A stretch of DNA of 44,911 nt from contig PGYU01000021.1 of the NCBI GenBank assembly GCA_002839825.1, positions 1-44,911 on the forward strand, read 5' to 3'. Source of the stretch: Ignavibacteriae bacterium HGW-Ignavibacteriae-1 (lineage in GTDB: Bacteria; Bacteroidota; Ignavibacteria; Kapaibacteriales; UBA2268). Every line of letters begins with the position of its first letter. Position 1 is the stretch's first letter. The notes below the pieces were generated by a model, which was given only the letters and a program-made list of their open reading frames with translations, was not told where the DNA came from and did no database searches. The position numbers and the translations under genes are program-made. Of this stretch, positions 4,191 to 44,911 are shown in pieces.

Positions 4191-4865
4191 TCAATCTCCC
4201 GGAACATAAAATTGGGTTACTAGCTCCAACCAATTCACAAAACCAATATCTAATAATTCAGAATATCTTTTATCCCATTTGCAACCTTTAAAATGAGGTA
4301 CACCCAGATGAAAAGCTTTATTCTTAGTCTTTTGTAAATCAATTCTATAATGATTTTCATGTGAAACTATATCATCAGATTTACAATGAAAGTTCCTTAA
4401 TGACCTGATAAAAGTTCCATAATCTGAATAAAACATATTAAAAAAAACTATATAAGTTGTATCCTTTATAAGAGGCTCAAAAAAATCTTTTTGCTTAATA
4501 TGAATTGTTAAATCTAATGTATCTTTGCGAAACAAGTGAACAAAATGAGGCATTTTATCAAATTTATGTTCAAATACCCCTAAGAATGGCATATGAATAC
4601 TTCCATTTTCTACAAGAAAATAGATTTCATTAGAAAAACTAAAAGAATTTCCTCTTGTGGGTGAAGGGTAATTTCCGTTATTCACTTTGACAGTCCAATC
4701 CGATAGAGCAAATATATATGATTCATCAGTCGGGTTATAAATCTTAACATTTATGATCACTTCATCATTTATGTACTGTGCTTCGATTGAACTAATCAGC
4801 TCTGTTGAAAAAATACATTGCGCATTTAGCACTAATAGTATCAAAATAATCCAAATCTTTTTCAT
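4191..4865 (-). CDS. Secreted protein of unknown function
   Basis: A 224-residue protein opening with a textbook signal peptide: Met-Lys-Lys, a hydrophobic core IWIILILLVLN, then AQC/IFS as a likely cleavage zone. A lipobox is not convincing. The mature part is rich in aromatic residues and beta-prone, with an early segment (VIINVKIYNPTDESYIFALS) that resembles the start of an Ig-like or transthyretin-like sandwich. I do not recognise the family. ATG at 4892 in the same frame would add nine residues and has GGAAA upstream, so the start is uncertain. An even earlier ATG at 4913 would lie almost on the predicted transcription start. Repeat clusters border the gene on both sides, and it has its own consensus promoter, so it is probably a single-gene accessory unit. 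Confidence 0.7.
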   Translation of the reverse strand: MKKIWIILILLVLNAQCIFSTELISSIEAQYINDEVIINVKIYNPTDESYIFALSDWTVKVNNGNYPSPTRGNSFSFSNEIYFLVENGSIHMPFLGVFEHKFDKMPHFVHLFRKDTLDLTIHIKQKDFFEPLIKDTTYIVFFNMFYSDYGTFIRSLRNFHCKSDDIVSHENHYRIDLQKTKNKAFHLGVPHFKGCKWDKRYSELLDIGFVNWLELVTQFYVPGD

Positions 4866-4922
4866 GTTTGCTTTCTTTAACAAAATTTTCATTTCTGTTT
4901 CCGTTTCCAACAATTGCTTTCA

Positions 4923-4953
4923 CAAACATATGAAAAAAACGAATAGTAGCAAA
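4923..4953 (-). promoter_or_regulatory. Consensus Bacteroidota promoter (TTTG-N19-TATGTTTG)
   Basis: Read leftward: TTTG at 4950-4953, exactly 19 bases, then TATGTTTG at 4923-4930, a perfect match to TTTG-N19-TAnnTTTG. Transcription would start near 4916 and serve the secreted protein gene. The promoter lies inside a 37-base sequence (4921-4957) repeated with one mismatch at 12396-12432. Confidence 0.82.
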
Positions 4954-4980
4954 TTTTCAGACTACATTTCCTGCTTTTCA

Positions 4981-5095
4981 GATGTGCCACACCTCGGAGG
5001 TGTGGCACATCTACGAGGTTGATATTCACCTCCCACGGTTAAAACCGTGGGCTATGTTTTTCTCCCTCTCCTTCGGAGAGGGTCGGGGTGAGGTG
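4981..5095. repeat. Array of three hairpins (REP-like)
   Basis: Three palindromes in a row: 4981-5011 (15-base arms around one base, core GTGCCACACCTC), 5032-5051 (CCCACGGTT-aa-AACCGTGGG) and 5064-5082 (CCCTCTCC-ttc-GGAGAGGG). The second and third, with the linker GCTATGTTTTT, recur in reverse orientation at 44369-44428. There the CCCACG hairpin has different inner arm bases that still pair. A short frame across the region is an artefact of the repeats. This looks like the non-coding REP/BIME-like elements mobilised by RAYT-type transposases, but no transposase gene is in the window. Confidence 0.75.
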
Positions 5096-5155
5096 GTTTT
5101 CTTTCGTCGGGGTGAGCTTCTTCAAGCTTTTTATTGTATGCACCCAAACAACAAA

Positions 5156-5190
5156 AGGCTAAACGAAATTCAATTGAATTAGTTTAGCCT
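5156..5190 (-). terminator. Terminator of rpmG
   Basis: Arms AGGCTAAAC (5156-5164) and GTTTAGCCT (5182-5190) form a 9-bp stem. The interior (ATTCAATTGAAT) is itself palindromic. On the minus strand the stem is followed by TTTTGTTGTTT. It lies about 50 bases beyond the rpmG stop. Confidence 0.7.
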
Positions 5191-5238
5191 GTTATTAGGC
5201 GTATGCGTAGTAAAAGCACTATGAGGGGCGCTGTTACT

Positions 5239-5418
5239 TTACTTTATTTCTTTGTGCAAAGTGTGTTTCTTCATGAATGGATTGTATTTCTTGAGTTCCA
5301 ATCTTGAAGGTGTGTTTTGCTTATTTTTCGTTGTAGAATAACGTGAAGTCGGCACTCCTGCCGCTTTTGCCTCGGTACATTCGACCGTGATTATTATTCT
5401 CTGCTCTTTCTTTGCCAT
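5239..5418 (-). CDS. rpmG: 50S ribosomal protein L33
   Basis: A 59-residue frame beginning [17 protein letters not shown] and ending [11 protein letters not shown]. Ribosomal protein L33 has this pattern: an N-terminal strand R.II.T.ECTE, then [19 protein letters not shown]. It is a small part of the 50S subunit near the E site. The Cys-pair zinc site of other L33 forms is absent, so this is the zinc-independent (C-minus) type. The ATG at 5418 is 39 bases from a perfect promoter, and a terminator follows, so it is a monocistronic unit. It is divergent from the RelA/SpoT gene. In many bacteria rpmG sits beside rpmB, which is not seen here. The frame is easy to miss because of its length. Confidence 0.95.
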
Positions 5419-5456
5419 TTCTATATATTCCTGAGTAATTTACTATCAAAGAACTA

Positions 5457-5487
5457 CAAATGTACGCAAGATTTTCCGAATAGCAAA
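5457..5487 (-). promoter_or_regulatory. Consensus Bacteroidota promoter of rpmG
   Basis: Read leftward: TTTG (5484-5487), exactly 19 bases, then TACATTTG (5457-5464). This fits TTTG-N19-TAnnTTTG perfectly and places the start of rpmG mRNA near 5450, giving a leader of about 30 bases. Confidence 0.82.
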
Positions 5488-5540
5488 AAAAATATTTAAC
5501 TCTTTATTTCGAGATTATAAGAAACATATTAACAGGACTT

Positions 5541-7595
5541 ATGACGCTCGATATTGAAAATCAATTAGAATCTTTTGCACAAAGTTTCATCCCAACGCTC
5601 GATTTGGTGCGTTCCAAGTCTGTTTTCGATGAAGTGAAGCAACTAAAGCTCGGCGATACGGCTCTGGCTACGGCTTTTCTCATCAACGCAGATTTGAGTG
5701 ATCCGAAGACCAAAAAGCTGGTCGCTGAGACATTCGGTCAAAAAGTTGTTGATAATATTGAACTTTTGGGACGCATTGGCAAGGTGCAATTTCTCGAAAC
5801 TACGAAGAACATCGCGGCATTGCGGAAGCATTTCATCGAATTGACTGAAGAAGTTGAAATTATTTTCATCAAACTTGCCGAGCGACTATGCAACCTGAAC
5901 TTTGCTGACAAAGAGCAGCACGAAGACATTTTGAAATTGTCCGAAGAGGCGCTATATCTGTATTCTCCGATTGCCCAACAACTCGGAATCCGAAAATTTT
6001 ATACCGAAATGGAGGATATTGCTTTCCGCAATCTGTATCCGGATGATTTCAAATATTTGGAAAAGATGATTGAAGCCAAACGCAATGTGTTCAACGCTAA
6101 ATTGAATTCGATGCGGCACGATTTGAACAAAGTTTTAGAAAAATATTCGATTAAAGCGAAATTTCAAGCGCGTGTAAAAAGACCTTACAGCATTTATCGA
6201 AAATTGAATAAGCAGAAAATTCCGCTCGATAAAATCTATGATTTGCTCGCTCTGCGAGTGATTATTGATTCGGTAGAGCATTGCTATTTGACTCTCGGGG
6301 CGGTACATAGCAATTGGATTCCAATTGACGGACGTTTCCGCGATTGGATTTCATTCCCCAAAGCAAACGGCTATCGTTCTATTCAGACGACAGTTGTGAC
6401 TCGCAACGGCGACAAATTCGAAATTCAAATCCGCACCGAAGATATGCACCAAGAAGCCGAATACGGTTCATCGGCACATTGGGCTTACAAGCAAGGCGCT
6501 CAATCAACTACAAATAGTTGGATTGTCAGATTGCGCGAATTCCTCGAAAATGAAGAATATTTCGATAATCCATATGAAGTTTTCGACAAGTTGAAATCGG
6601 AAATGAAGCGGGATTACATCAACGTACTCACACCAAAGGGCGAAATATTTTCACTACCCGAAGGCTCGACTCCTTTGGATTATTCATTTTCGGTTCATAC
6701 GGATTTGGGCTATAGAACGACAGGAGCACGCGTAAACGGGAAATTTGTTAAGCTGAACACGGAACTAAAATCCGGCGACGTAATAGATATAATTAGCTCC
6801 AAAACTTCTACTCCATCACGAGATTGGCTCAAAATTGTAAAAACAAACCGCGCCCGCTCGAAAATTTTAAGATGGTTCAAGAAAAACGAGCAGGAAGTTT
6901 TCATTTTCGAGGGGAAAGTAGCTTGGGAAAAGCTCAAGACCAAAAATGTGAAAAAGCTCAAGGGATTTGACGACGAAAATAAATTCAAGAATGGATTGAA
7001 CAAACTCGGCTATAAATCGCCCGATGAATTTTATTATGCGATTGCCAATGGCTCTGCGAAGTGCTCATTGTTCACGCTCAAAAGGATTTATCCTGATGCT
7101 TTCCGCAAGAAAGAGGATTCAGAGAGAAAATCAAGCAGTTCACACCCCAAAGATGTGATGCCGAAAATTAATGTTGAAGGTATGAGCGGAATTACAACCA
7201 TTTTGGCTAAATGCTGCAACCCGATTAAAGGCGAGCCGGTCATTGCATACATCACAAAAAGGTCTGAACTAAAGATTCATTCGGCTAATTGCCAATATCT
7301 GAAGACTCAGAATCTTGACCAAAGCAATTTCAAAAAAGCCGAATGGACTGATGGCGACTCTTATCAAGTCGTTAAATTGCGGATTTTTGGCGAATCTTAC
7401 TCGAATTTGCTTTCAATCGTTGTGGACGAAGCCGACCAATGCAAGTTGCGGATTATGGATTCCTCGCGAATTATCAATCGTGCTGCAACAACGGGCTTGT
7501 TGCTCGAAATTGAGGTGAACGACATCAATCACCTAACGAAATTTACAAATAAATTGAAAAATCATAAGGCAGTCGAAAGCGTCAAGAGCGTCTAA
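5541..7595 (+). CDS. RelA/SpoT-type (p)ppGpp synthetase with degenerate hydrolase domain
   Basis: A 684-residue RSH alarmone enzyme. Synthetase motifs are intact: RVKRPYSIYRKL (about 211-222), IYDLLALRVI (232-241), LGAVHSNWIPIDGRFRDWI (252-270) and EIQIRTEDMHQEAEYGSSAHW (294-314). It should therefore transfer pyrophosphate from ATP to GDP/GTP. A TGS domain (YINVLTPKGEIFSLP...), a Cys-rich ZFD-like segment (AKCCNPIKGEPVIAYIT...HSANC) and a C-terminal ACT/RRM domain follow, as in long ribosome-associated RSHs. The N-terminal hydrolase region has lost the HDxxED metal site; the matching stretch reads INADLSDPKT. The later LADRLHN motif reads LAERLCN. By analogy with RelA, this predicts a synthetase-only enzyme needing a separate hydrolase elsewhere. 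ATG at 5541 has CAGGA upstream. It converges with the phosphatase gene, 9 bases apart. Confidence 0.92.
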   Translation: MTLDIENQLESFAQSFIPTLDLVRSKSVFDEVKQLKLGDTALATAFLINADLSDPKTKKLVAETFGQKVVDNIELLGRIGKVQFLETTKNIAALRKHFIELTEEVEIIFIKLAERLCNLNFADKEQHEDILKLSEEALYLYSPIAQQLGIRKFYTEMEDIAFRNLYPDDFKYLEKMIEAKRNVFNAKLNSMRHDLNKVLEKYSIKAKFQARVKRPYSIYRKLNKQKIPLDKIYDLLALRVIIDSVEHCYLTLGAVHSNWIPIDGRFRDWISFPKANGYRSIQTTVVTRNGDKFEIQIRTEDMHQEAEYGSSAHWAYKQGAQSTTNSWIVRLREFLENEEYFDNPYEVFDKLKSEMKRDYINVLTPKGEIFSLPEGSTPLDYSFSVHTDLGYRTTGARVNGKFVKLNTELKSGDVIDIISSKTSTPSRDWLKIVKTNRARSKILRWFKKNEQEVFIFEGKVAWEKLKTKNVKKLKGFDDENKFKNGLNKLGYKSPDEFYYAIANGSAKCSLFTLKRIYPDAFRKKEDSERKSSSSHPKDVMPKINVEGMSGITTILAKCCNPIKGEPVIAYITKRSELKIHSANCQYLKTQNLDQSNFKKAEWTDGDSYQVVKLRIFGESYSNLLSIVVDEADQCKLRIMDSSRIINRAATTGLLLEIEVNDINHLTKFTNKLKNHKAVESVKSV

Positions 7596-7604
7596 TTGTT
7601 TCAA

Positions 7605-8336
7605 TTATTCTGTCTCGAATGCTTGTTTGCGTTTTACAATGGCAGCCCTACGTTGCTTCATTTTGACTTTTGCCAAAATCACATTTTCAAAAATATTTCG
7701 CACATCGAAAAAACTTTTGAATGGATAATGTGGCACTTTGTTGTCGTTGCAATATCGAGCAAGAAATTTCTTCGCGAAAATTATATCGCTATGCTCGGCA
7801 GCACAAAAATCCGAGTAACCGTCGCCGATATAAACGATAATCGCATCTTCGGGCGAATGTGTGAGCAATACATTCCGCTTACACGAGGCGCTCAAGCAAT
7901 TGCATGATTCATCAGCACCGTAAAATTCCGGTGAAATTTTGTCGCCAAAATTCAATTTATTGGCATACAAGGGCAATTCGGAAATACCCGCCAATTCGAG
8001 AAGTGGTTCGATGTATTCGCGATAGCCATCGCTAACAAGTGTGATTTCAATTCGACGCTCTTGGCAAAAATGGACAAAATCCACAAAATACGGGTCAATC
8101 TCAAATTCTTTAGCAAATTCGGCAATGATTGCCGGATTAAGCTTATTGTCCAAAGTTTCGGTGATGCGATACCAATAAGTCTTGATATCAATTTCACCAC
8201 TTTTGAGCATTTTGCTCAATTCATCAAATTCTCCGAAACGCTTGAAAATTTCATCTCCTAAGTCCTTGGAAGTCACCGTTCCATCAAAATCACAGAAAAT
8301 TTTTATTTCGAAATTCGTATTTTTATCTACAGCCAT
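7605..8336 (-). CDS. MtnX-like HAD-IB family phosphatase
   Basis: A 243-residue haloacid-dehalogenase phosphatase. Motif I is DFDGTVT with Asp16 (nucleophile) and Asp18. Motif II supplies the serine in LVSDGYREYIEPLL. Motif IV reads YIGDGYSDFCAAEHSDIIFAK, close to the MtnX/phosphoserine-phosphatase-like subgroup. MtnX dephosphorylates an enol intermediate in methionine salvage, but no other salvage gene is nearby, so the substrate is open. A small Cys pair (CNCLSASC) in the cap region may bind metal or be incidental. I chose ATG 8336 because homology begins ten residues later. The longer frame to 8462 runs into cdsA on the other strand. The gene is divergent from cdsA with a 71-base gap. Confidence 0.8.
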   Translation of the reverse strand: MAVDKNTNFEIKIFCDFDGTVTSKDLGDEIFKRFGEFDELSKMLKSGEIDIKTYWYRITETLDNKLNPAIIAEFAKEFEIDPYFVDFVHFCQERRIEITLVSDGYREYIEPLLELAGISELPLYANKLNFGDKISPEFYGADESCNCLSASCKRNVLLTHSPEDAIIVYIGDGYSDFCAAEHSDIIFAKKFLARYCNDNKVPHYPFKSFFDVRNIFENVILAKVKMKQRRAAIVKRKQAFETE

Positions 8337-8407
8337 AACATTTAAAAAGATTAAATTCTTATTTTGCAAAATTAATATTGGTAAAATTAAGAAAAAAGGC
8401 TGAACAA

Positions 8408-9295
8408 TTGAACGAACTATCCAAACGTAGCTTGGTAGGTGCAATCGGAATTCCGTTAGCACTTATTGTGATTTACTTCGGTTATTGGTATTTCGCCTCT
8501 GTTGTGATTTTGCTCTCCGTGTTGGCATTGTGGGAGTATTACGCATTAGCCGAAAGGAAAAACGCCCGACCTGCAAAGTATTTTGGGCTTATAATGAACG
8601 TTGCGATGTTGCTAAATTTTTATCTATTTTTCGATAAAGGATATTTCGCAATTGTTATGTTTATCCAGCTTAGTGTGTTGTTTGTTGGTTCGATGCTCAT
8701 TCAACTCTATATGCGGAACGAACAAGCGATAGTCAATTTGGCGACAACCGTTGCAGGCGTTTTGTATATGACCTTCCTTTTGGGTCCATTGCTGCTTTTG
8801 CGAGAGTTTTTTTTAGTCATCCAAATGTTTGATACTTTCGGTATGTCCGGCACGTATCTAAAAGACTCTGTCTTTTTAGAAAACAGCACTTGGGGATTTT
8901 TTGTCATAATAATTTTCTTCACCATTTGGATTTGCGATTCGGCTGCATATTTCATTGGCAAAGCATACGGGAAAAATAAACTGTTCGCTAGGGTCAGCCC
9001 GAAAAAGACTTGGGAAGGTGCAATTGCAGGATTCGTATTCGCAGTTTTGTCATTTTATACATTCAGTCTGTTCTTTTTGCCGGAACTGCCGTCCATACAT
9101 GCCATCGTACTCGGAATAATCGTCGGAACTGCCGGACAAATTGGCGACCTCGCTGAATCGCAACTTAAACGTGATGCGGAAGTTAAGGACAGCTCAGATC
9201 TCATTCCTGGACACGGTGGTGTGCTTGATAGATTTGACAGCATAATGTTTGTAAGTCCAATAATTATGATATATTTACTCCTTTCGAATATTTAA
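8408..9295 (+). CDS. cdsA: Phosphatidate cytidylyltransferase
   Basis: A 295-residue polytopic membrane protein that makes CDP-diacylglycerol from phosphatidate and CTP, the branch point of phospholipid synthesis. The diagnostic C-terminal signature is intact (KDSSDLIPGHGGVLDRFDS near the end). Upstream are VSPKKTWEGAIAGF and ICDSAAYFIGKAYGKN, also typical. About eight hydrophobic segments are visible. Start choice: TTG at 8408 (MNELSKRSLVGAIGIPLAL), because AAAAAAGG sits 8 bases before it and CdsA proteins normally begin this way. TTG at 8378 would add ten residues and has no ribosome site. Confidence 0.93.
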   Translation: MNELSKRSLVGAIGIPLALIVIYFGYWYFASVVILLSVLALWEYYALAERKNARPAKYFGLIMNVAMLLNFYLFFDKGYFAIVMFIQLSVLFVGSMLIQLYMRNEQAIVNLATTVAGVLYMTFLLGPLLLLREFFLVIQMFDTFGMSGTYLKDSVFLENSTWGFFVIIIFFTIWICDSAAYFIGKAYGKNKLFARVSPKKTWEGAIAGFVFAVLSFYTFSLFFLPELPSIHAIVLGIIVGTAGQIGDLAESQLKRDAEVKDSSDLIPGHGGVLDRFDSIMFVSPIIMIYLLLSNI

Positions 9296-9363
9296 TCAAA
9301 TACGACTAATTTAGTCCAATTTTAAATATTTTTTTACGTCATTAGATATAACAATCAAATTTT

Positions 9364-9395
9364 TTTGTTTATTTGGAATGAATAAGCTAAATTTG
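9364..9395 (+). promoter_or_regulatory. Likely promoter of nuoAB (TTTG-N20-TAAATTTG)
   Basis: TTTG at 9364-9367 and TAAATTTG at 9388-9395 are separated by 20 bases, one more than the Bacteroidota consensus. Transcription would begin near 9402, about 30 bases before the nuoA ATG. Confidence 0.65.
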
Positions 9396-9433
9396 AACTT
9401 CGTAAAGTTCGAAATTTTAGGAATTTGAATAAA

Positions 9434-9790
9434 ATGTTAGTTGATTATTTACCGGTGTTTATAATGATAGCCTTGGGTGCCATTGTCGGGGTTGCCTTTT
9501 TGTTTGGCTCAGAGTATCTCGGGGCAAGGCGTTCAACAAAAGTGAAGCAATCCACGTACGAATCGGGGATGATTCCTCGGGGTACAGCAAGAAATCGCTT
9601 CACAATTAAGTTTTACATGGTAGCTGTAAGTTTTTTGATATTCGATATCGAAGTAGTGTTCATGTATCCATGGGCAGTGCAATTAAGAGAAATCGGCTTT
9701 ACGGCTTTCTGGGCAATGTTAGTGTTCATAGTTATTCTCTTCGTAGGGTATTTCTATGAATTGAAAAAAGGAGGATTCGAATGGGATTAG
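9434..9790 (+). CDS. nuoA: NADH-quinone oxidoreductase subunit A
   Basis: A 118-residue, three-helix membrane subunit of respiratory complex I. Family marks are [41 protein letters not shown] in the middle, including the conserved acidic residues of the FDIEVVF helix near the quinone tunnel. A third helix ([16 protein letters not shown]) follows. I use ATG 9434, which has TAGGAA 10 bases upstream, rather than TTG 9425, which overlaps that site. The 3' end overlaps nuoB by 10 bases, so the two are translationally coupled. Subunits C to N are not in the window. Confidence 0.95.
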
Positions 9791-10359
9791 AAAATATATT
9801 ATCGAAAGATGGATTCCTCACCACATCGGTTGAGGCAATCGCTAAATGGGCGCAAAAGAATTCGGCATGGCCCATGCCGCTGGGAATTTCGTGTTGCGGT
9901 ATCGAGATGATGGCATTCGCTGCTGCTCGTTTCGACGTGGCGCGATTTGGCTCTGAAGTATTTCGTATGACTCCGAGACAATCAGATATTCTGCTCGTAG
10001 CCGGTACTGTAACTTACAAGATGGCTTGGGTGGTTCGTAAAATTTATGACCAAATGCCCGACCCAAAATGGGTAATGTCTATGGGCGTTTGTGCCAGTTC
10101 CGGCGGTATGTTCAGAAGCTATTCTGTGGTACAAGGGATTGACCTGTTTTTACCTGTTGATGTTTACATCTCGGGATGCCCGCCAAGACCCGAAGCTGTT
10201 ATTCAAGGATTGATGACAATTCAGGAAAAAATCCAAAAGGCGCACCGACCGGATTTGATTAATTTGGGCAAAAATGTGTCTATGACTCCTACCGGAGAAA
10301 AATTTGATTCCGATTTGGTTTTCGACCCCTTGAAATCGAAAAAATTAGTATTGAAATAA
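9781..10359 (+). CDS. nuoB: NADH-quinone oxidoreductase subunit B
   Basis: A 192-residue peripheral-arm subunit of complex I that holds the terminal Fe-S cluster N2. The four ligand cysteines are present: the tandem pair in [12 protein letters not shown], one in [12 protein letters not shown] and one in [33 protein letters not shown], also typical, lines the quinone site. Length is normal or slightly long; the C-terminal ~35 residues are lineage-variable. The gene starts inside nuoA and is followed at once by a strong terminator, so the transcript carries only A and B. In most genomes nuoC follows directly, so the rest of complex I must be encoded elsewhere. Confidence 0.96.
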
Positions 10360-10379
10360 CCGACAAAATTTTTAACTGA

Positions 10380-10402
10380 GGGCTTGATTATCAAGCCCTT
10401 CT
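10380..10402 (+). terminator. Rho-independent terminator after nuoAB
   Basis: GGGCTTGA and TCAAGCCC form an 8-bp stem (10380-10398) around TTA, followed by TTCTTTTATTT. It sits 21 bases after the nuoB stop and ends the nuoAB transcript. Confidence 0.85.
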
Positions 10403-10500
10403 TTTATTTGTATCTACTGCCGCCATCAAAAGAAAAAGAGCCATTAATGCCGTGTTGCAGACAATGGGCAAATTTTATATTGATAAAATAAAACGCGCGT

Positions 10501-11940
10501 ATGAAGGAAAACAATTTTGAGCATTTAATCATAGATGAGAAGGCGCCCAAGCCGAACGATTCGATTTGGCAACAACTCAAAGACGCTATCAGAGGCACTG
10601 AAGCGGATTATACACAAATCACCATCAAAAAAGCTATATTCTTATTGTCGGTGCCGATGATATTAGAATTAGTGATGGAATCCACCTTTGCCGTTGTAGA
10701 TATTTACTTCGTCGGCAAGATTAACCCTTCAGCTGTTGCAACCGTAGGGCTGACAGAAACTTACTTGTTCTTCCTCTATTCAATCGCTATGGGGCTTTCG
10801 ATGGCTGTCACGGCAATCGTCGCTCGGCGCATTGGCGAAAAAAGCAAGGAAGGTGCAAGCAAAGCCGCTGTTCAATCAATCATAGTCGGACTCGTTGCAT
10901 CCTTGCCATTTATGGTAGCCGGACTTTTCTACGCAAAAGACTTACTTGCCTTGATGGGTGCCGATGCGTGGGCATTGGAGCATGGTTATCGCTATACGCA
11001 ATGGATGCTCGGCGGCAATGCCGTGATTATGTTGCTCTTTATCATCAATGCTATATTCAGAGGTGCCGGAGACGCTGCAATTGCAATGAGAGTGCTTTGG
11101 ATTTCAAACGGAATCAATTTAATTTTAGACCCGATTTTGATTTTCGGGTGGGGACCAATGCCGGCTTATGGCATCGAAGGTGCTGCAATTGCCACAAACA
11201 TCGGGCGCGGAACCGCTGTTTTAGTTCAACTTTTCGTTCTTTTCCAAGGTGGCAAGCATATCAAAGTCTTAGTTTCGCACCTTCGCCTGGATGCAAAAGT
11301 CATGCTTAACATTTTGAAAACCTCAATCGGAGGAATCGGACAAATGTTGGTCGCGATGTCTGCATGGGTGTTTTTGATGCGTATATTGTCCGACGTTGGG
11401 AGCGAAGCCGTCGCCGGTGCAACAATTGCAATTCGCATTATGATGTTCATGATGATGCCTGCATGGGGGCTTTCCAATGCCGCAGCAACATTAGTCGGGC
11501 AAAACTTGGGCGCCGGAAGCCCCGAAAGAGCTGAACAAGCCGTTTGGCGTGCAGGATTCTACAATATGTCATATTTAGTGTTGGTATCGGTAATATTTTT
11601 TGCCTTCAACGAAGAGCTGATGAGGATTTTCACTGACGACGCCAAAGTAATTGCTATTGGTTCCGAATGGCTGCAAATTCTGTCCTTCTCATTTTTTGTT
11701 TACGGATGGTGGATGGTCACCGTTCAAGCATTCAACGGCGCCGGAGACACGCGCACACCGACTTTGATCAACATCGTATTTTTCTGGTTGATTCAAATTC
11801 CGCTTGCATATTATTTGGCGATACATTTGGATTACCAACAATCAGGCGTATTTTGGGCGGTTTTCGTCTCAGAAACATCAGTAGGACTGTTCACTCTTTG
11901 GATTTTCACCAAAGGACGATGGAAAACGATGCAAGTTTGA
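10501..11940 (+). CDS. MATE family multidrug/cation efflux protein
   Basis: A 479-residue inner-membrane transporter with about 12 hydrophobic segments in two homologous halves, as in MATE (NorM/DinF-like) antiporters. These export cationic drugs or metabolites using Na+ or H+. Typical elements are SVPMILELVMESTFAVVDIYFVG at the first helix, FRGAGDAAIAMRVLWISNGINLILDPILIFG in the N half, and GLSNAAATLVGQNLGAGSPERAEQAVWRAG and FNGAGDTRTPTLIN in the C half. A ~50-residue hydrophilic N-terminal tail precedes helix 1. No clear Shine-Dalgarno is visible before ATG 10501. The RidA gene follows 55 bases later on the same strand and could be co-transcribed. Confidence 0.93.
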   Translation: MKENNFEHLIIDEKAPKPNDSIWQQLKDAIRGTEADYTQITIKKAIFLLSVPMILELVMESTFAVVDIYFVGKINPSAVATVGLTETYLFFLYSIAMGLSMAVTAIVARRIGEKSKEGASKAAVQSIIVGLVASLPFMVAGLFYAKDLLALMGADAWALEHGYRYTQWMLGGNAVIMLLFIINAIFRGAGDAAIAMRVLWISNGINLILDPILIFGWGPMPAYGIEGAAIATNIGRGTAVLVQLFVLFQGGKHIKVLVSHLRLDAKVMLNILKTSIGGIGQMLVAMSAWVFLMRILSDVGSEAVAGATIAIRIMMFMMMPAWGLSNAAATLVGQNLGAGSPERAEQAVWRAGFYNMSYLVLVSVIFFAFNEELMRIFTDDAKVIAIGSEWLQILSFSFFVYGWWMVTVQAFNGAGDTRTPTLINIVFFWLIQIPLAYYLAIHLDYQQSGVFWAVFVSETSVGLFTLWIFTKGRWKTMQV

Positions 11941-11995
11941 TATTTCATAGCCGAATCCCTATATTTGAATTTTGAATATACGGATTTTGCTAATT

Positions 11996-12373
11996 ATGAA
12001 AACAATCTCAATTCCGAACGCATCGTCACCAGCCGGACATTACAGCCCCGCAAAAGTCTCCGGCGGCTTAATTTTTGTTTCGGGCATCTTACCAATTGAC
12101 CCTTTTGACGGCACAAAATCTAGCGATAAAGATTTTGCAATGCAAGCCGAACTTGTTCTCTCAACTTTGGAATTAATTCTGAACGAAGCCGGGAGCGACT
12201 TGTCAAAACTGCTCAAAGTAACAGTCTATGTCACCAATATCAACGATTGGGACGAATTCAACCGCATTTACGCCGCCAAATTGGGCGCCCATAAACCCGC
12301 TCGTACCGTCGTTCCCGTCAAAGAGCTCCACTTCGGACTCAAATTAGAGCTCGATGCAATAGCGAAGGAGTGA
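11996..12373 (+). CDS. RidA family (enamine/imine deaminase-like) protein
   Basis: A 125-residue Rid/YjgF/YER057c protein. RidA trimers hydrolyse reactive enamine or imine intermediates such as 2-aminoacrylate. Motifs seen: the N-terminal SSPAGHYSPAKVSGGLIFVSGILPIDP, the central VTVYVTNINDWDEFNRIYA, and the C-terminal HKPARTVVPVKEL...LELDAIAKE. The last includes the arginine that binds the substrate carboxylate and the acidic residue used in deamination, so it is likely active, though it may belong to a Rid subgroup. I start at ATG 11996 because family sequence begins there; TTG-type starts upstream have no support. The accessory island begins right after its stop. Confidence 0.9.
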   Translation: MKTISIPNASSPAGHYSPAKVSGGLIFVSGILPIDPFDGTKSSDKDFAMQAELVLSTLELILNEAGSDLSKLLKVTVYVTNINDWDEFNRIYAAKLGAHKPARTVVPVKELHFGLKLELDAIAKE

Positions 12374-12399
12374 GAGGTGATAATAACATAATTTCAAAA

Positions 12400-12430
12400 T
12401 TTGCTACTATTCGATTTTTTCATATGTTTG
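12400..12430 (+). promoter_or_regulatory. Consensus Bacteroidota promoter before the RHS fragment
   Basis: TTTG (12400-12403), exactly 19 bases, TATGTTTG (12423-12430). It is embedded in a 37-base sequence (12396-12432) identical but for one base to the minus-strand sequence at 4921-4957. Transcription would start near 12437, upstream of the ATG at 12475. Confidence 0.8.
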
Positions 12431-12474
12431 TGGAAGAATTGAATTCTGTTTTCAAATTAATTCATAATATCGCG

Positions 12475-14001
12475 ATGTGGAACAACTCGCATAGAGAATA
12501 CGCCAGCCCCGATGCAATAAGTTACGACCCACAAAAGTGGCTCTGGCAGTATCGCAAGGGTGCATTCGATACTCGTGAACAAAAGCGATTGCTGATTTCG
12601 CCACATGGTGACGGCACGGACGACAACGGCGATGATTACGCTCACTTGTGGGAATACTCGCTCTCGGGAGTTGCTGGCGAACTTTACGTGCTTTACAAGG
12701 GATTGCAGACGGCGACAACGACAGTGCCGAACGAAAACAAGACTGATGCCGGGCGACGGGTATATATTTCTCCGTTCAAATATTATGCTGCCGGTGGTGA
12801 ATTGCAGTTCCAAGCGGACGGCACGACGAAGGAGGTTCATATCACCGACAATCTCGGCTCGGTGCGGAGTATAGTGATTTGGGATAATGTCGGTTTGAAG
12901 GACATCAAAAGCTTTGATTACAAGCCCTTCGGTGAGTTGGACGGTGGTGACGAACCGACGAAACACGGATTTGCTACGGCAGAATACGACGGCGAATCGA
13001 GTTGCTTTGCAATGGGAATGCGAATGTATTCGGCAGAGCTCGGGCGATTCCTGAGTGTTGACCCGCTGTTCGAGGCGATGCCACGCCACACCCCCTATCA
13101 TTATTCCTTCAATTCCCCACTTGTTTGGCGAGACCCCTCAGGGTTAATTCCAGAGAATGAAAAAGACCAGGACAGGTTGATGGATTTGTCTAGAATCTTT
13201 GGTCAAACAGAAGGAAGTGAAGAAAATTATATACAATGTGTCACTGAAGTCGATTTCGCTGGTAACGAAGTAAGAGCCTTTAATAAAGAAATGGATGAAA
13301 GGGTAAGTGAAATGCAGAATGCTCGTGAAAGAGGAGGACGTTTAGGAGCTGAGGGAAAAGGGGATAATGGAGCTTGGGAAATTAAAAATGAATGGACCGA
13401 AGAAATGATTGAAAAATATAGAATATTCTCAGACAAGCAAGCAAAATTGTATCAAGATATGGGAAAAGAGTTTACATGCGAAGATTTTGCTTTACAAATA
13501 ATGATTGATTTTGCCTCTGAAAATCACTTACCATTTTCTATTAAAACCGAATCTGGTGTTTTCGATGCATCTGACTCTCAGTGGGGAGGTGATATAATGG
13601 AATTCCGAAATGCTGTACTGGATGCAACCGGAGCTAATGACCTTATTTCTTTTGGGAATACAATTAAAGTTGATTTAAACAGCTTACAATCAGGCGATTT
13701 ATTAATTGAACGAAAAGATGGGAAAAGGGGCAATCATGTTCAAATAGTAGAATTTGCTACAAAGTCAAGCATATATATATTGCAGGGAGACTCTAATTGG
13801 CTAAATGGGGTGCGGGGAGCAAGCAAGTATTTAAATGCTTCACACCCAAATTCACTCTTATATATTGGCAAAACAATATCTTCTGGTTCGTACTATCGTG
13901 AAACAGGTAATTACATAAATTTTAACTCTGGAAGGTTCTATTGGAATCTTATTAAAACTTCAAATATTATAGGTGTACAATGGAATTTCAAAAAATGGTG
14001 A
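12475..14001 (+). CDS. RHS-repeat core fragment with C-terminal papain-like candidate toxin tip
   Basis: A 508-residue product. Residues about 15-224 are the end of an RHS/YD-repeat protein: WQYRKGAFDTREQKRLLISP, then TDNLGSVRSIV, then the RHS core signature GMRMYSAELGRFLSVDPL...YHYSFNSPLVWRDPSGL. Full RHS proteins exceed 1000 residues and carry a secretion signal; neither is present, so this is a 5'-truncated or cassette copy. After the core (DNA near 13146) the sequence becomes much more AT-rich and unrelated. The tip contains FTCEDFALQIMIDFA (Cys335) and SLQSGDLLIERKDGKRGNHVQIVEF (His421). This Cys...GD...His order is that of NlpC/P60, CHAP and related papain-like hydrolases. RHS tips are usually toxins. 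I start at ATG 12475, since earlier starts lie inside or before the promoter. Its 3' end overlaps the next gene. RHS call strong; catalytic call tentative. Confidence 0.78.
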   Translation: MWNNSHREYASPDAISYDPQKWLWQYRKGAFDTREQKRLLISPHGDGTDDNGDDYAHLWEYSLSGVAGELYVLYKGLQTATTTVPNENKTDAGRRVYISPFKYYAAGGELQFQADGTTKEVHITDNLGSVRSIVIWDNVGLKDIKSFDYKPFGELDGGDEPTKHGFATAEYDGESSCFAMGMRMYSAELGRFLSVDPLFEAMPRHTPYHYSFNSPLVWRDPSGLIPENEKDQDRLMDLSRIFGQTEGSEENYIQCVTEVDFAGNEVRAFNKEMDERVSEMQNARERGGRLGAEGKGDNGAWEIKNEWTEEMIEKYRIFSDKQAKLYQDMGKEFTCEDFALQIMIDFASENHLPFSIKTESGVFDASDSQWGGDIMEFRNAVLDATGANDLISFGNTIKVDLNSLQSGDLLIERKDGKRGNHVQIVEFATKSSIYILQGDSNWLNGVRGASKYLNASHPNSLLYIGKTISSGSYYRETGNYINFNSGRFYWNLIKTSNIIGVQWNFKKW

Positions 14002-14279
14002 AAGTGATTAAATGGTTAAATGTCGTAATAGCCATTCTATCTGTAATGTTTATTACATTCGCTCTACTTTACGATAACATAATCATGAGACGAGAGGTCA
14101 CTGCGATAACATATTTCATATGGGGAAATATTGGTAATGTTTTTTTATTGAATATAATTAATATCATTATTACAATAATATTTTTAAAAAAGGTAAAATA
14201 TCCAAAATCTACACTTTTATTAAGTTTGATATCTATTATAATCATTATACTTATAGGTAACTCATTTGATCCACACTGA
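13980..14279 (+). CDS. Small 3-TM protein, candidate immunity protein
   Basis: A 99-residue, very hydrophobic protein with three membrane segments (about 12-32, 42-68 and 78-94) and short polar loops. ATG 13980 follows AGGTG by 4 bases and lies 22 bases inside the RHS frame, so its translation is coupled to the toxin-like gene. An alternative start at 13995 would shorten it by five residues. I recognise no family. A small gene overlapping the end of an RHS tip is where cognate immunity genes usually sit, and membrane location would suit a toxin acting in the envelope. That role is inferred from position only. Base composition is as AT-rich as the RHS tip. Confidence 0.65.
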   Translation: MEFQKMVKVIKWLNVVIAILSVMFITFALLYDNIIMRREVTAITYFIWGNIGNVFLLNIINIIITIIFLKKVKYPKSTLLLSLISIIIIILIGNSFDPH

Positions 14280-14339
14280 TAGTAACAAAATTTCTTTTAT
14301 AGGGAATTTTAACAATTTTAATAGAACTAGGAGATAACC

Positions 14340-14675
14340 ATGAAGAATGTTCAAATGATTTTGATTACTATACTAAAATATTTACCTCTAATACTGACTA
14401 TAGCTCCTATCGTTTCAATTATTATTTTTATAAATTTGCCTTCAAATTATGGTGATTATTCAATACCAATTTTAAATATCACCAGAATTCAAGTTAAAGA
14501 TTTTGTGTATGATTACAATTGGATTATTGGTTTAAATTTTGTAATAAATATTGTCATAATCATCTTCTTAAGACTTTTTAAGCAAAAAATCTTTGCTGAA
14601 GAAATATGCCTAATTTTCGGTTTATTCCCTGCAATGTTATATTCGATTTATTTATTTGAATTTTTACCATATTAA
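14340..14675 (+). CDS. Small 3-TM protein, unknown
   Basis: A 111-residue membrane protein with hydrophobic stretches at about 10-32, 59-78 and 87-107 and a polar loop (SNYGDYSIPILNITRIQVKDF) between the first two. It has the best ribosome site of the island (TAGGAGATAACC before ATG). It lies 60 bases after the preceding 3-TM gene and 13 bases before the next, in one transcription direction. I see no sequence similarity to its two small neighbours beyond hydrophobicity. It may be a second immunity-type or accessory protein of the RHS tip; no family is recognised. Confidence 0.6.
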   Translation: MKNVQMILITILKYLPLILTIAPIVSIIIFINLPSNYGDYSIPILNITRIQVKDFVYDYNWIIGLNFVINIVIIIFLRLFKQKIFAEEICLIFGLFPAMLYSIYLFEFLPY

Positions 14676-14688
14676 AGGATAGCCATAA

Positions 14689-14913
14689 ATGAAAATTATA
14701 AAAAATAATAAAAATCTTTTATACTTAGCATGTATTATTGTAGTCATTCTATTCAATTTATTATTTGTAGAATTTGGCTTTATAGTCCTAATTGTTATAG
14801 TATCGCTTATAATAGTAGCTACTACGATTACCTTAAAAGATGAGAAAAAGCAATTGATTTTATTAGCTTTTCTTCTAGTTTTCCATATTTATGTATGGTT
14901 CATATTTACTTAA
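14689..14913 (+). CDS. Small 3-TM protein, unknown
   Basis: A 74-residue protein that is almost entirely membrane-embedded, with segments near 9-26, 29-48 and 54-73 joined by a short charged loop (TLKDEKKQ). ATG 14689 is preceded by AAGGATAGCC. It ends the row of AT-rich genes behind the RHS tip, and a repeat cluster begins about 60 bases later. No family is recognised. Being so short and hydrophobic it could be non-functional, but the ribosome site and tight spacing after the 14340 gene argue for a real gene. Confidence 0.5.
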   Translation: MKIIKNNKNLLYLACIIVVILFNLLFVEFGFIVLIVIVSLIIVATTITLKDEKKQLILLAFLLVFHIYVWFIFT

Positions 14914-14973
14914 ATTCAATTTTTTAGAGGAAAGTAAATCTTCATCTACCCATACCCATATCTCCCCTCACGT

Positions 14974-15286
14974 CAGCCCCGCCACGAGAGCGGGGCTGTG
15001 GGGTGGTTTTGTCTGTCAAGGAGAGGTGAGCTGTTCCGTTCTGTCTTTGTAGCAAAAGCGAGAAGAGGCGACGGTTTGTCATTCTTTAAAAATGACGATT
15101 CAGAAAATGCATCCGGATGTTTCTCTTTGCGTTCTTTGCGGTTAAATTGTATTGTTCGTCCTGAAATAAGTTTACAACACACCCCCTAACCCCCTCTTGA
15201 TAGTGGGGGAACGGGTTTTGGGGTGTTTATTGTCAGTTGTAACAACTGATAGGACAAATACAAGTAGAGACACGGCGCGCCGTGTC
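14974..15286. repeat. Intergenic repeat cluster: hairpins plus modules A and B
   Basis: The 410-base gap 14914-15323 has no convincing gene. It contains a hairpin at 14974-14998 (CAGCCCCGC/GCGGGGCTG), module A on the minus strand at 15133-15153 and module B at 15158-15223. Two further palindromes are TCAGTTGT-a-ACAACTGA (15233-15249) and the perfect GACACGGCG/CGCCGTGTC (15269-15286). Relative to the copy at 4039-4172 the A and B modules are in the same mutual strand but swapped order. Short frames here on both strands are repeat artefacts. Confidence 0.7.
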
Positions 15287-29861: not shown

Positions 29862-32234
29862 CTATTGCAGATTAATTTTTTCTACTAAGAAATTTTGACC
29901 ATCGGTGACATGTATGAAATACATTCCCGATGGTAATTTTTTATCGGCTAAATTAATCTGGACTGAACTTACTTCCGATTCTAACTCAATCCGATAGACT
30001 TCTTGCCCCATAAGATTGCGAATTGTAATCGTTCGCGGCGAAAAATCCGCACAGTGAACCGTTAGCAAATCTTTAGCGGGATTTGGGAATATAAACATCT
30101 GCGGAATAGTCAAATCCGATACAGAAGATATGTAATCATCATCTCCGCCGGGCTTCACTTCGCCCGAAGGCTTATAGTTTGTGTTTATAATTTCAAACGG
30201 TTCAGACCATACTTCGCCACATTCATTCCAGAATTTATATTTGTAAATGCCGGATTGTAGATTGGTATTATAGCCACCAATGTAGTAAGCATGCGATTTT
30301 TCGACCAAACTAGTGATTTTGCGTTCATCAACTTTTCCCAAGGGTTCATCTTCATAATACAGTTGGGCATAGAGTATAGGTCCATGTGAATAGACAGTGC
30401 AATTCTTCTTTGGTATGAAGTTATCTTCATTCACCATCAATACAGGAAATTGCTTTGTTATTTCCGGCGGACCTTTGACTTGGAGATATATTTTGCCCAA
30501 ATATTCGAGCTCTCCGCTTTCTTTATGTTGTCGCCAAGCTTCGTAAGCACCACTATCATCCACTATTAGCCAGGAAAAATCAAGTTTGTATGAGTCGTTG
30601 CCTTTGATTCGAAAATTGGGAACAAAGGGCTTTTTGTCTTTGTGCCAAATGTAATTGTAATTTTCTTCACCGTCTTCTGCTTTTTCAAATTCGATGGACC
30701 CTTTATCAAAAATGCAATAAATAAGATCTTCATTTCCCCAATATACATTTACTGTTTTAGTTACCAATGTTGTACAAGGATGTGTGATAACGCAATAATA
30801 TTTGCCAACGTCACTTGGCACAGCCATACGTGGATAGCCTCTTTCTCCCAAATTATAAATCGCACCTGACATATTAGTATCAGAATGGATTAGACTGTCA
30901 TCTTGGAACCAGTCAAATATACACATTTTATTGCTGTTGATATAAGTCCTGAGTTCGAGTTGCCCGTCGTAAAAATTATCTTTATCAAGAACAACAAAAT
31001 CCTCAAGATCTCTCGTAATAAAAGGTAAAAAAGCGGGGTCAATTGTGAAAATTTGCGAATTTTGAGAAATATCAAATTCCGGCATCGTTACCCTGCAATA
31101 ATAAGCAATTGCGTCTTTATTTTGGACATCGTTTATTGTAAGTCTTTTGGTTTTGGTCCCTACATATTTATCAGATTCTTTAATCAGTCTGAGTCCGGTG
31201 TTGTACCATTGATATTCTATTTTGGAATCAACCAAAGTTTCTACTTCGACTTCGAGAAATGCAGTGCCGCCCTCGCAATCTTCGTAATCAAAGCCATTAT
31301 TATGAATTTTCATAAAAGAACTTTCCCCAATAAAAGTGTAAATTGTATCTTTTCCGCAGCGTCCCTCAGCAATGCAAAAGTATCTGCCTTTGTCGGAATA
31401 AATCATATCCTTGACTATCAAATGGTCAGACCAAGCACCGCTGATTCTGCCACCATCTTTGAGAGCTATGATTTCAGGCTTTTTTGTAAAAACATTTAAA
31501 GTATCGCGATACCACCGAAATTTAGTATTTCTCGATTCTTCCAAATCCAAGGAATGAATTCCCACTTTGAATTCTGCCGTAGCAAGATATGTCCATTGTT
31601 TACTGAGCGGAGCAACTGTAAATTGAGTTTTTGTTGATACAAATACGCTGATAGGACTGCTCATCACAGGCAGACACGAATATTCGGAGGAAACGACACA
31701 TTGGTAAGTGCCATTTAATTCATACTCTGCATTCTCGAAAATTAGTGCTGTTTTGTTCGCTCCGTGGATTAGTTCGCCGTCTTTGTACCATTGATATTTT
31801 AGTCCGCTGCCATCAGCATCTACTTGCAACACGATTGTTTCGCCTTGGCATACAATTGCAGATTCAGTTTGGGAAGTTATTTTCGGAGTGATGGCAATTC
31901 GAATATTGTCAACTCTTGCTATTTGGTCGCTTAATTCGCCGGTATCTACAATGATGCTGAAATCTCTGTCAAACCAAGCAGGGTCATCAACTATCCAAGT
32001 AAATTCATTACCGCTAAAAATATTGGTCAATATTTTTGATTCGCCAAATTGATATTCCGTCAAGCTAATTCTTAGGTTTTCAATATTATCATTAAATTTG
32101 ATAATTAATGGTGATTCCGAGCAAACCACTGAATACGGCTCCGGACTTACAATCTCGATTTCCGATTGAGCAAACGCCAATTGAAAATGAAAAAGCCCGA
32201 TTATGACCAATTTTATAATATAATTTCGCGACAT
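29862..32234 (-). CDS. Large secreted Ig-like-domain protein with T9SS sorting domain (paralog 2)
   Basis: A 790-residue exported protein. A signal peptide (MSRNYIIKLVIIGLFHFQLAFAQ) precedes several Ig/PKD-like domains. One is clear: TSQTESAIVCQGETIVLQVD...YQWYKDGELIHGANKTAL...GTYQCVVSSEYSC, with the Cys-Trp-Cys pattern. At least two more carry the YQWYN...YYCRV or YYCVITHPC pattern. The last ~75 residues (PQMFIFPNPAKDLLTVH...LPSGMYFIHVTDGQNFLVEKINL) form a type A T9SS sorting signal, so the protein should end on the surface or outside. GGAG lies 5 bases before ATG 32234; an earlier in-frame start at 32255 is less likely. It is a tandem paralog of the next gene with almost identical length. 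The function may be adhesion; unproven. Confidence 0.85.
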   Translation of the reverse strand: MSRNYIIKLVIIGLFHFQLAFAQSEIEIVSPEPYSVVCSESPLIIKFNDNIENLRISLTEYQFGESKILTNIFSGNEFTWIVDDPAWFDRDFSIIVDTGELSDQIARVDNIRIAITPKITSQTESAIVCQGETIVLQVDADGSGLKYQWYKDGELIHGANKTALIFENAEYELNGTYQCVVSSEYSCLPVMSSPISVFVSTKTQFTVAPLSKQWTYLATAEFKVGIHSLDLEESRNTKFRWYRDTLNVFTKKPEIIALKDGGRISGAWSDHLIVKDMIYSDKGRYFCIAEGRCGKDTIYTFIGESSFMKIHNNGFDYEDCEGGTAFLEVEVETLVDSKIEYQWYNTGLRLIKESDKYVGTKTKRLTINDVQNKDAIAYYCRVTMPEFDISQNSQIFTIDPAFLPFITRDLEDFVVLDKDNFYDGQLELRTYINSNKMCIFDWFQDDSLIHSDTNMSGAIYNLGERGYPRMAVPSDVGKYYCVITHPCTTLVTKTVNVYWGNEDLIYCIFDKGSIEFEKAEDGEENYNYIWHKDKKPFVPNFRIKGNDSYKLDFSWLIVDDSGAYEAWRQHKESGELEYLGKIYLQVKGPPEITKQFPVLMVNEDNFIPKKNCTVYSHGPILYAQLYYEDEPLGKVDERKITSLVEKSHAYYIGGYNTNLQSGIYKYKFWNECGEVWSEPFEIINTNYKPSGEVKPGGDDDYISSVSDLTIPQMFIFPNPAKDLLTVHCADFSPRTITIRNLMGQEVYRIELESEVSSVQINLADKKLPSGMYFIHVTDGQNFLVEKINLQ

Positions 32235-32345
32235 AAAGACTCCGATTGAATTCATTAAGCATTGTACTTTTTAGGCAAAGAAGCTCTATTCAAATATTTT
32301 TAAGATATCCTACTTCACACAAAAATCACAGAAAAATATGTAACG

Positions 32346-34721: not shown

Positions 34722-34881
34722 GTTTTTTATTTCCTGAATTCTCCATACTGTAAAAAACAAGTGAAACTTCGATTTGTTACATTTGAAATCAATTTTTTTT
34801 CAATTTCGAAAAGAAATAAATTAGGTCAATCGCCATAAATTTGATATTTTTATATCAATTAGAATTAATAAATTGAAAATA

Positions 34882-44833: not shown

Positions 44834-44901
44834 CGTCCTAAAATAAGTTTACAACACACCCCCTAACCCTGCTCTTGATAGAGCAGGAACGACTTTTGGG
44901 G
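44834..44901 (+). repeat. Third copy of module B
   Basis: GTCCTAAAATAAGTTTACAAC...ACCCCCTAACCC, then GCTCTTGATAGAGC and CGACTTTTGGGG. It is the same element as 15158-15223 and the reverse of 4101-4172, but the hairpin arms read CTGCTC/GAGCAG instead of CCCCCTC/GAGGGGG. The window ends 10 bases later. Confidence 0.75.
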
Positions 44902-44911
44902 TTTCTTTGTG

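Follow-up and report, generated by a model that had tools for sequence, protein, structure and literature searches.

The RHS toxin cassette described here lies in a stretch of 44,911 nucleotides (nt) of Ignavibacteriae bacterium HGW-Ignavibacteriae-1 (Bacteroidota, Kapaibacteriales; assembly GCA_002839825.1, contig PGYU01000021.1), the whole of which is called the window. It consists of an RHS core, a toxin tip and three small membrane genes, all on the forward strand, standing behind a copied leader that has a promoter-like site and a start codon. The favoured reading, held with moderate confidence, is that of an expressed orphan toxin–immunity cassette, maintained for immunity and as a donor of tips. 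Its position behind its own copied promoter suggests that its main use is protection from neighbours rather than attack. Orphan RHS toxin–immunity cassettes are already known; what would surprise a specialist is the shared leader, and a literature search to which subscription journals were mostly closed found no report of leader-sharing orphan RHS cassettes. Such cassettes are often taken for spare parts that need a main gene. If the favoured reading is true, a bacterium without the weapon organises its protection from neighbours through self-led cassettes and lone immunity-like genes, and the idea of an “immunity memory” becomes directly testable. The tip (Pfam, NCBIfam, PHROGs, PADLOC and PDB sequences) and its partner with three transmembrane (TM) segments (Pfam, NCBIfam and PADLOC) have no above-cut-off match in these libraries.

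In the proposed mechanism, the core end, tip and immunity gene, which make up the 3' part of an RHS gene, would have been parted from the export half and placed behind a copied leader that supplies a promoter and a start. The tip would most likely be a peptidoglycan peptidase or amidase, acting in a rival’s envelope when carried on a full-length exported RHS protein; held in the cytoplasm, such a wall hydrolase should be harmless. The 99-amino-acid (aa) three-TM protein encoded directly behind it would be the tip’s immunity protein, acting at the membrane, and the 111-aa protein that follows would probably be a second, diverged immunity protein whose own toxin was lost. These downstream membrane proteins might protect the cell from rivals delivering related tips. 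Since the fragment is not exportable as read, the leader most likely keeps immunity expressed, and the intact tip could stay a donor for recombination with the full-length RHS genes of relatives.

The leader is a repeat of about 110 bp (12390-12496, forward strand) that includes the promoter-like site and the start MWNNSHR. Its promoter core comprises TTTG (12400-12403), 19 nt and TATGTTTG (12423-12430). This TTTG-N19-TAnnTTTG pattern fits the Bacteroides sigma-ABfr promoter consensus, TTTG / TAnnTTTG (PMC7366714), and we infer that such promoters are used in this lineage. A consensus sigma-70 scan, which does not model the Bacteroides-type promoter, gave 23 sites against 10.5 expected by shuffling in this AT-rich DNA. 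Three genomes of the genus hold, between them, four RHS orphan cassettes with this leader; the copies are 90-93% identical, although the leader meets the core at two different points. The 33-mer promoter core, with up to three mismatches, occurs in 10 copies in these three genomes (reversed-pattern control: 0), and a pattern with one fewer N has no copy in 51 further genomes of the family. The first-pass annotation, made from the letters and a list of open reading frames (ORFs), had called the cassette promoter-driven, and the comparison supports this in the form of a promoter-like leader with a start codon that is conserved among cassettes.

Behind the 10 copies stand RHS cassettes (4/10) or lone proteins with signal-peptide-like starts (6/10). 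Relatives near RHS cassettes exist for five of the six lone proteins. Four belong to one family that has a relative directly behind an RHS cassette in genome G042, with E-values of 1.2e-5 to 8e-10 that refer to a small local ORF set from the fetched loci and not to a public database. Another shares 74% identity with a gene of sister genome G001, located two ORFs upstream of an RHS cassette. No copy of the leader core was found at the full-length RHS gene of G001. In the window itself, a second, inverted copy of the core (4921-4953, reverse strand) precedes the gene of a lone 240-aa protein with a signal-peptide-like start (4191-4913, reverse strand), a candidate orphan immunity protein. It has a paralog on contig C30 of its own genome and relatives in G002, G001 and G042, the last directly behind an RHS cassette.

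A tentative extension, for which the odds are rather against, is that the leader serves as a copy-and-paste immunity expression module: it would have spread through the genus, would place orphan cassettes and lone immunity genes under common control (an immunity regulon) and would shuffle genes by recombination between its copies. Housekeeping gene names used here (RidA-, relA-, rhodanese-, ArsR- and glyoxalase-like) were given by reading, without a profile. Relative to the rhodanese/ArsR/glyoxalase-like genes, the cassette is on the same side in both the window and G002, and the tips and following genes differ. The relA-ridA block (4911-12442), which lies between opposed leader copies (4911-4957 and about 12390-12442), has the opposite orientation in G002 with respect to that flank, which suggests that recombination between leader copies moves genes. 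For this one genome pair the order of genes is consistent with such an origin of the inversion; in G002 the ridA side is separated from the next leader by about 4.4 kb of other sequence, so that only part of the difference can be put down to a simple inversion.

The ORF from GTG 12370 to 14001 overlaps the stop of the RidA-like gene. The RHS protein most likely starts at ATG 12475 (MWNNSHR..., 508 aa; 12475-14001, forward strand), because the first 35 codons of the longer ORF lie in the leader, where frame-breaking indels occur among cassette copies. The RHS core called at first pass is borne out by TIGR03696 (Rhs_assc_core, NCBIfam), which matches aa 184-259 of the ORF from GTG 12370 at 54.7 bits against a cut-off of 32.5. 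As in RHS polymorphic toxins, this domain stands before the tip. The long RHS shell and the export signal or delivery domain of such toxins are absent: the fragment has only 508 aa and shows no export signal, the signal peptide being judged by reading, in agreement with the orphan cassette without export signal described earlier.

Within the core (12519-13186, forward strand), positions 12519-12881 have 95% DNA identity with the core of a 2096-aa RHS gene in G001, and the stretch to 13182-13186 matches other orphan cassettes at the DNA level. The DNA identity extends to 13182-13186 for four sister cassettes and to 13370 for a fifth. GC content falls from 0.518 (12500-12999) to 0.246 (14000-14499) across the tip and the small genes. 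The shift to AT-rich sequence reported before is real; its boundary, put at 13146, is better placed at 13182-13186 (13370 for the fifth sister cassette). The variable linker (13187-13362, forward strand) ends in a Gly-rich block that recurs ahead of several different tips. Sister cassettes that share the core differ in their tips, and core homology, an unrelated tip and an adjacent small gene, the marks of an orphan cassette, are all present.

In the bacterium’s own assembly no other RHS-core match exceeds the TIGR03696 cut-off, and the G001 RHS protein as query matched the window only. Two matches lie below the cut-off, a 28-aa frame on contig C36 and a stretch inside a 2681-aa frame on C14 (16.7 and 13.8 bits); the portion of the latter that was inspected resembles a large surface protein and, by eye, has no RHS motif. 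G001, of the same genus, encodes a 2096-aa RHS protein with a signal-peptide-like start that runs off its contig, and the window core is 90% identical in aa sequence, over 138 residues, to the end of this protein. Just upstream of the G001 gene, a 299-aa protein (locus L081, 6300-7199, reverse strand) has, by reading, a sorting-domain-like end, a hint at an export partner. It had been proposed that the cassette acts by recombining with a full RHS gene; within the same genome this is not possible on the present assembly, because no such gene was found in it, and a sister species has one.

The core is under purifying selection. Between the window and the G002 cassette with the same leader–core joint, the nonsynonymous rate (dN) is 0.019 and the synonymous rate (dS) 0.214 over 138 codons; a further stretch of the same pair, which shares a few codons with the end of the first, gives a dN of 0.012 and a dS of 0.288 over 89 codons. 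The core dN/dS is about 0.09, and therefore the cassette is not decaying and the fragment is conserved as a protein. The same conservation could also stem from gene conversion with full-length genes. A decaying pseudogene left behind by an RHS deletion, which the 5' truncation and the dispersed repeats nearby might recall, is very improbable given the intact frame, a dN/dS near 0.09 between two same-joint cassettes and the conserved leader. A second proposal holds that the cassette is silent storage, an unexpressed tip donor like the orphan rhs in Salmonella. Core DNA identity of about 90% or more and the linker block shared with other tips provide the homology that exchange would use, and in G002 another tip occupies the corresponding position next to the rhodanese-like gene. 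The “silent copy” also considered at first pass fits poorly with purifying selection and with a conserved leader that carries a promoter-like motif and a start codon; no full-length RHS gene was found in the assembly, and the Salmonella orphan has no initiation signals (PMC3967940), unlike the window cassette. Silent storage is thus judged unlikely, and an expressed cassette is preferred.

The toxin tip (13363-13998, forward strand) belongs to a rare family. Its relatives were sought with the whole ORF among the matches listed and then with tip alignments, which gave at least eight other RHS tip loci: L035 (G042), L038 (G017), L036, L037, L042 (partial, G019), L043 (G026), L046 (G329) and L047 (G465). 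Alignment A1 matched 6 of 295 relatives, with the bacterium’s own genome counted and one match, in G256, being a CHAP protein; alignment A4 matched 6 of 395 genomes of the phylum, two of them (G256 and G358) through CHAP proteins. The places concerned, L044/L048 (one place in G256) and L049 (G358), were rejected as RHS tips, being CHAP proteins by Pfam, and were left out of the pairing count given below.

In an alignment of five tips (that of the window and four relatives), a Cys (FTCEDF), a His (GNHVQ), a Gln and a GD pair do not vary. AlphaFold2 on this alignment gave a best model with a predicted local distance difference test score (pLDDT) of 80.8 and a predicted template modelling score of 0.81. 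VIA-align, used here as a re-scoring of Foldseek’s candidates, placed 2evr first for the predicted model (Z 12.0, root-mean-square deviation 2.7, 134 aligned residues); other rows include 2hbw (Z 11.8) and 3h41 (Z 10.4). Cell-wall peptidases or hydrolases fill the top six rows (Z 12.0 to 10.1), and several of them bear NlpC/P60 in their titles; lower rows hold CHAP endolysins and Tse1/Tae1 (Z about 7.3). Herpes gB, which occupied the first Foldseek PDB rows, was rejected as spurious. Foldseek against viral models gave no match at E 0.001 or better and listed many endolysins and CHAP proteins from E 0.0055.

At the sequence level, the tip profile weakly matches two CHAP-domain proteins (CHAP by Pfam; E 2.2e-4 and 2.6e-4, one genome each). 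In one hhalign comparison, the tip aligned with these two proteins at P 76% and E 2.3e-5 over 41 columns around GD..H..(Q/E)GN; the His, GD and GN motifs of the tip align with CHAP, and the tip Gln stands opposite Glu. Pfam on seven tips returned two weak matches only, to other families; PADLOC gave two weak matches, both outside the tip (E 0.013 and 0.02), and a PDB sequence search with the tip two chance-level matches (E 1.3 and 2). The tip is likely a hydrolase of the NlpC/P60–CHAP superfamily because of the VIA-align fold match of its model and the weak profile and hhalign link to CHAP proteins. Its substrate may be the cell wall, judging from the fold families and the location of the partner proteins. 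The NlpC/CHAP-like tip with Cys and His of the earlier annotation agrees with these results: structure prediction gave a papain-like fold, and library profiles were silent on the tip.

These features also bear on a cytoplasmic role, in which the fragment would be made inside the cell and regulate growth there in the manner of a toxin–antitoxin module, as Salmonella Rhs toxins are reported to do (PMC7043789). The fragment has its own start codon, its translated core is under purifying selection, and the toxin and immunity genes overlap, all of which would suit such a module. The predicted fold is that of wall hydrolases, whose substrate lies outside the cytoplasm, and the genes behind all nine tips (9/9) encode membrane or, by reading, secreted proteins. 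A cytoplasmic module therefore has a low probability, and an envelope-acting tip with membrane immunity is the preferred reading.

Three small membrane genes follow the tip on the forward strand: the first (13980-14279) encodes 99 aa, the second (14340-14675) 111 aa and the third (14689-14913) 74 aa. Each product has three predicted TM segments by hydropathy, one segment of the third being borderline. The first gene overlaps the RHS stop by 22 nt, as its counterpart in L035 likewise overlaps, and the spacers between the small genes measure 60 and 13 nt. Three small membrane genes in one direction, the first overlapping the RHS stop, had been noticed before and are found as described; as a whole the earlier sequence observation is confirmed, except that calling the three genes unrelated is doubtful. 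None of the small proteins has a match above cut-off in Pfam, NCBIfam or PADLOC, and for the 99-aa protein Pfam gave a single match, which lies below the cut-off (DUF7670, E 0.15).

The gene directly 3' of the tip encodes a small membrane protein with 2-4 hydropathy segments in 7 of 9 tip loci (the window, L035, L036, L037, L038, L042 and L047) and a protein with a signal-peptide-like start in the two distant loci, L043 and L046. This pairing supports the toxin and membrane-immunity arrangement suggested at first pass. An immunity relative right behind the tip is clear in L035 and weaker in L042 and L038, and the four versions, with that of the window, were aligned as one family. Pairwise shuffle tests indicate clear kinship between the window and L035 (z 17.6) and between L038 and L042 (z 9.5), values to be read knowing that residue shuffles overstate significance for membrane proteins. 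The 99-aa three-TM gene is probably the cognate immunity gene of the tip.

The 111-aa protein scores 12.6 bits against the immunity family (E 0.0084, Z=1000; reversed control -6.6), a value outscored by another weak match, L108 (17.3 bits). When it was ranked against 36 membrane ORFs, copies and junk frames among them, its top five non-self matches were tip-associated genes, and its C-terminus has the F-x-P-Y of the immunity family. It is probably a diverged relative of the 99-aa protein, the evidence being suggestive and not proof. The spacer in front of it (14277-14339, forward strand) can be read as NFNNFNRTR followed by R-stop, a possible remnant of a lost tip end. Support for the remnant is modest: 16 of 2000 shuffles did at least as well, as did 23 of 2000 real AT-rich 63-mers, these being taken from loci in which true tips also occur.

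No relative of the 74-aa protein was detected. Searched singly, the 111-aa and 74-aa proteins had no match at E < 1e-3 in 99 relatives (best 0.0059 and 0.0024), and within the flanks that were read their relatives appear in 0 of 8 other tip loci. The expectation that the small genes accompany the tip in homologs thus holds for one small membrane gene, present in most loci, and fails for the second and third. The same direction, the short spacers (60 and 13 nt) and the shared three-TM pattern would fit a single multi-part immunity unit for the window tip. Such a unit is nevertheless improbable, given these two negative results and G042, where a single immunity gene is followed by another RHS cassette. 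Nor is the description as three unrelated partners for one tip borne out, as the 111-aa protein resembles the 99-aa protein in score and C-terminal end. A better description of the small genes is a probable cognate immunity gene, followed by its probable diverged relative and by a third gene without a detected relative.

Other genomes offer parallels. G020 has a clear immunity homolog (MEFQKM...GQSFNPY, 42.4 bits) preceded by about 10 recognisable tip-end codons, in frames with stops, on a contig that begins 351 nt upstream; here the toxin looks to have been lost and the immunity gene kept. In G042 the tip stands within a row of three pairs, each an RHS fragment with an immunity-like gene, and 4 of 5 junctions overlap (L075, 2224-6959, reverse strand). 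One tip in this row carries HELFIHALMH, by eye a metallopeptidase-like motif.

Several results weigh against the reading of an expressed cassette with a wall-hydrolase tip and membrane immunity. For the tip, adding the distant L043 keeps His and GD and turns the Gln column to Ser; the four other AlphaFold2 models are clearly worse (pLDDT 66.7 to 61.2), only the best being confident; 26 residues of that best model, mostly in loop 145-168, have a pLDDT below 50; Foldseek against PDB returned nothing at E 0.001 or better; and the window tip has no match in Pfam, NCBIfam or PHROGs. For the immunity genes, the link between the two related pairs is weak (window-L042 z 3.8, window-L038 z 1.0, L035-L042 z 2.8, L035-L038 z 0.3), and the small genes of L036 and L037 form another family (z 31), so that the membrane genes are not clearly one family. 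Most immunity proteins catalogued in PMC3482391 are not TM proteins, although for an L,D-peptidase toxin that paper does report secreted or TM ones. Among the leader genes, a 283-aa protein in G002 has no RHS-linked relative in the local ORF set. The main loose end is the strong conservation of the RHS core, which is odd if immunity is the sole use and suggests either that the RHS fragment is itself of use or that gene conversion is at work.

Further features of the window lie outside the cassette. Short dispersed intergenic repeats (14954-15027, 15173-15224 and 44850-44910) are also present near RHS cassettes in sister genomes. At 29862-34760 (reverse strand), two neighbouring, similar, secreted-looking proteins of 797 and 804 aa have ends that, by reading, resemble a type IX secretion sorting domain.

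Among known systems, the Tae1/Tse1 amidase effectors of type VI secretion systems are papain-like wall hydrolases delivered to rivals, and immunity to them is periplasmic. They are not RHS tips, and at a Z of about 7.3 they score below the NlpC/P60-type peptidases against the tip model. Closer in kind are the Tox-NLPC/P60 polymorphic toxins (PMC3482391), which share an NlpC/P60-type papain-like domain with the window tip and whose table includes Bacteroidetes and RHS repeats. Their signature is C, H and D; the tip matches C and H, and its third residue is Gln. Their immunity column is empty in that table, and the window tip, for which no library profile gave a match, is paired with a small membrane protein.

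The orphan rhs-CT/rhsI pairs of Salmonella LT2 (PMC3967940; PMC7043789) and the orphans of contact-dependent inhibition (CDI) systems (PMC3150448) resemble the cassette in having a core-homologous RHS 3' fragment, a variable tip, an immunity gene behind it and no export part. The Salmonella orphan lies downstream of its main gene and lacks initiation signals (PMC3967940), as do most CDI orphans (PMC3150448); expression from promoters inside the rhs ORF is reported for Salmonella Rhs (PMC7043789), and recombination of an orphan tip with a full RHS gene has been shown in Salmonella (PMC3967940). The window cassette differs in its leader, with a promoter-like motif and a start codon that are repeated at other loci, and in that no main gene was found. 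Extra immunity without a toxin, as here, is known from V. cholerae arrays (PMC5361080), the Serratia Rhs1 locus (PMC10539506) and the rAID systems of Bacteroidales (PMC12247911), and the G020 locus, with its toxin apparently lost and its immunity gene kept, follows the pattern of V. cholerae and Serratia (PMC5361080, PMC10539506). Clusters of the rAID type are arrays of immunity genes associated with a recombinase; a reading of the window ORFs of 150 aa or more by eye showed no recombinase, and none was noticed next to the small three-TM genes or the dispersed single genes. From all these orphan-immunity systems the window is set apart by small three-TM proteins behind an RHS orphan and by dispersed single genes that share one leader.

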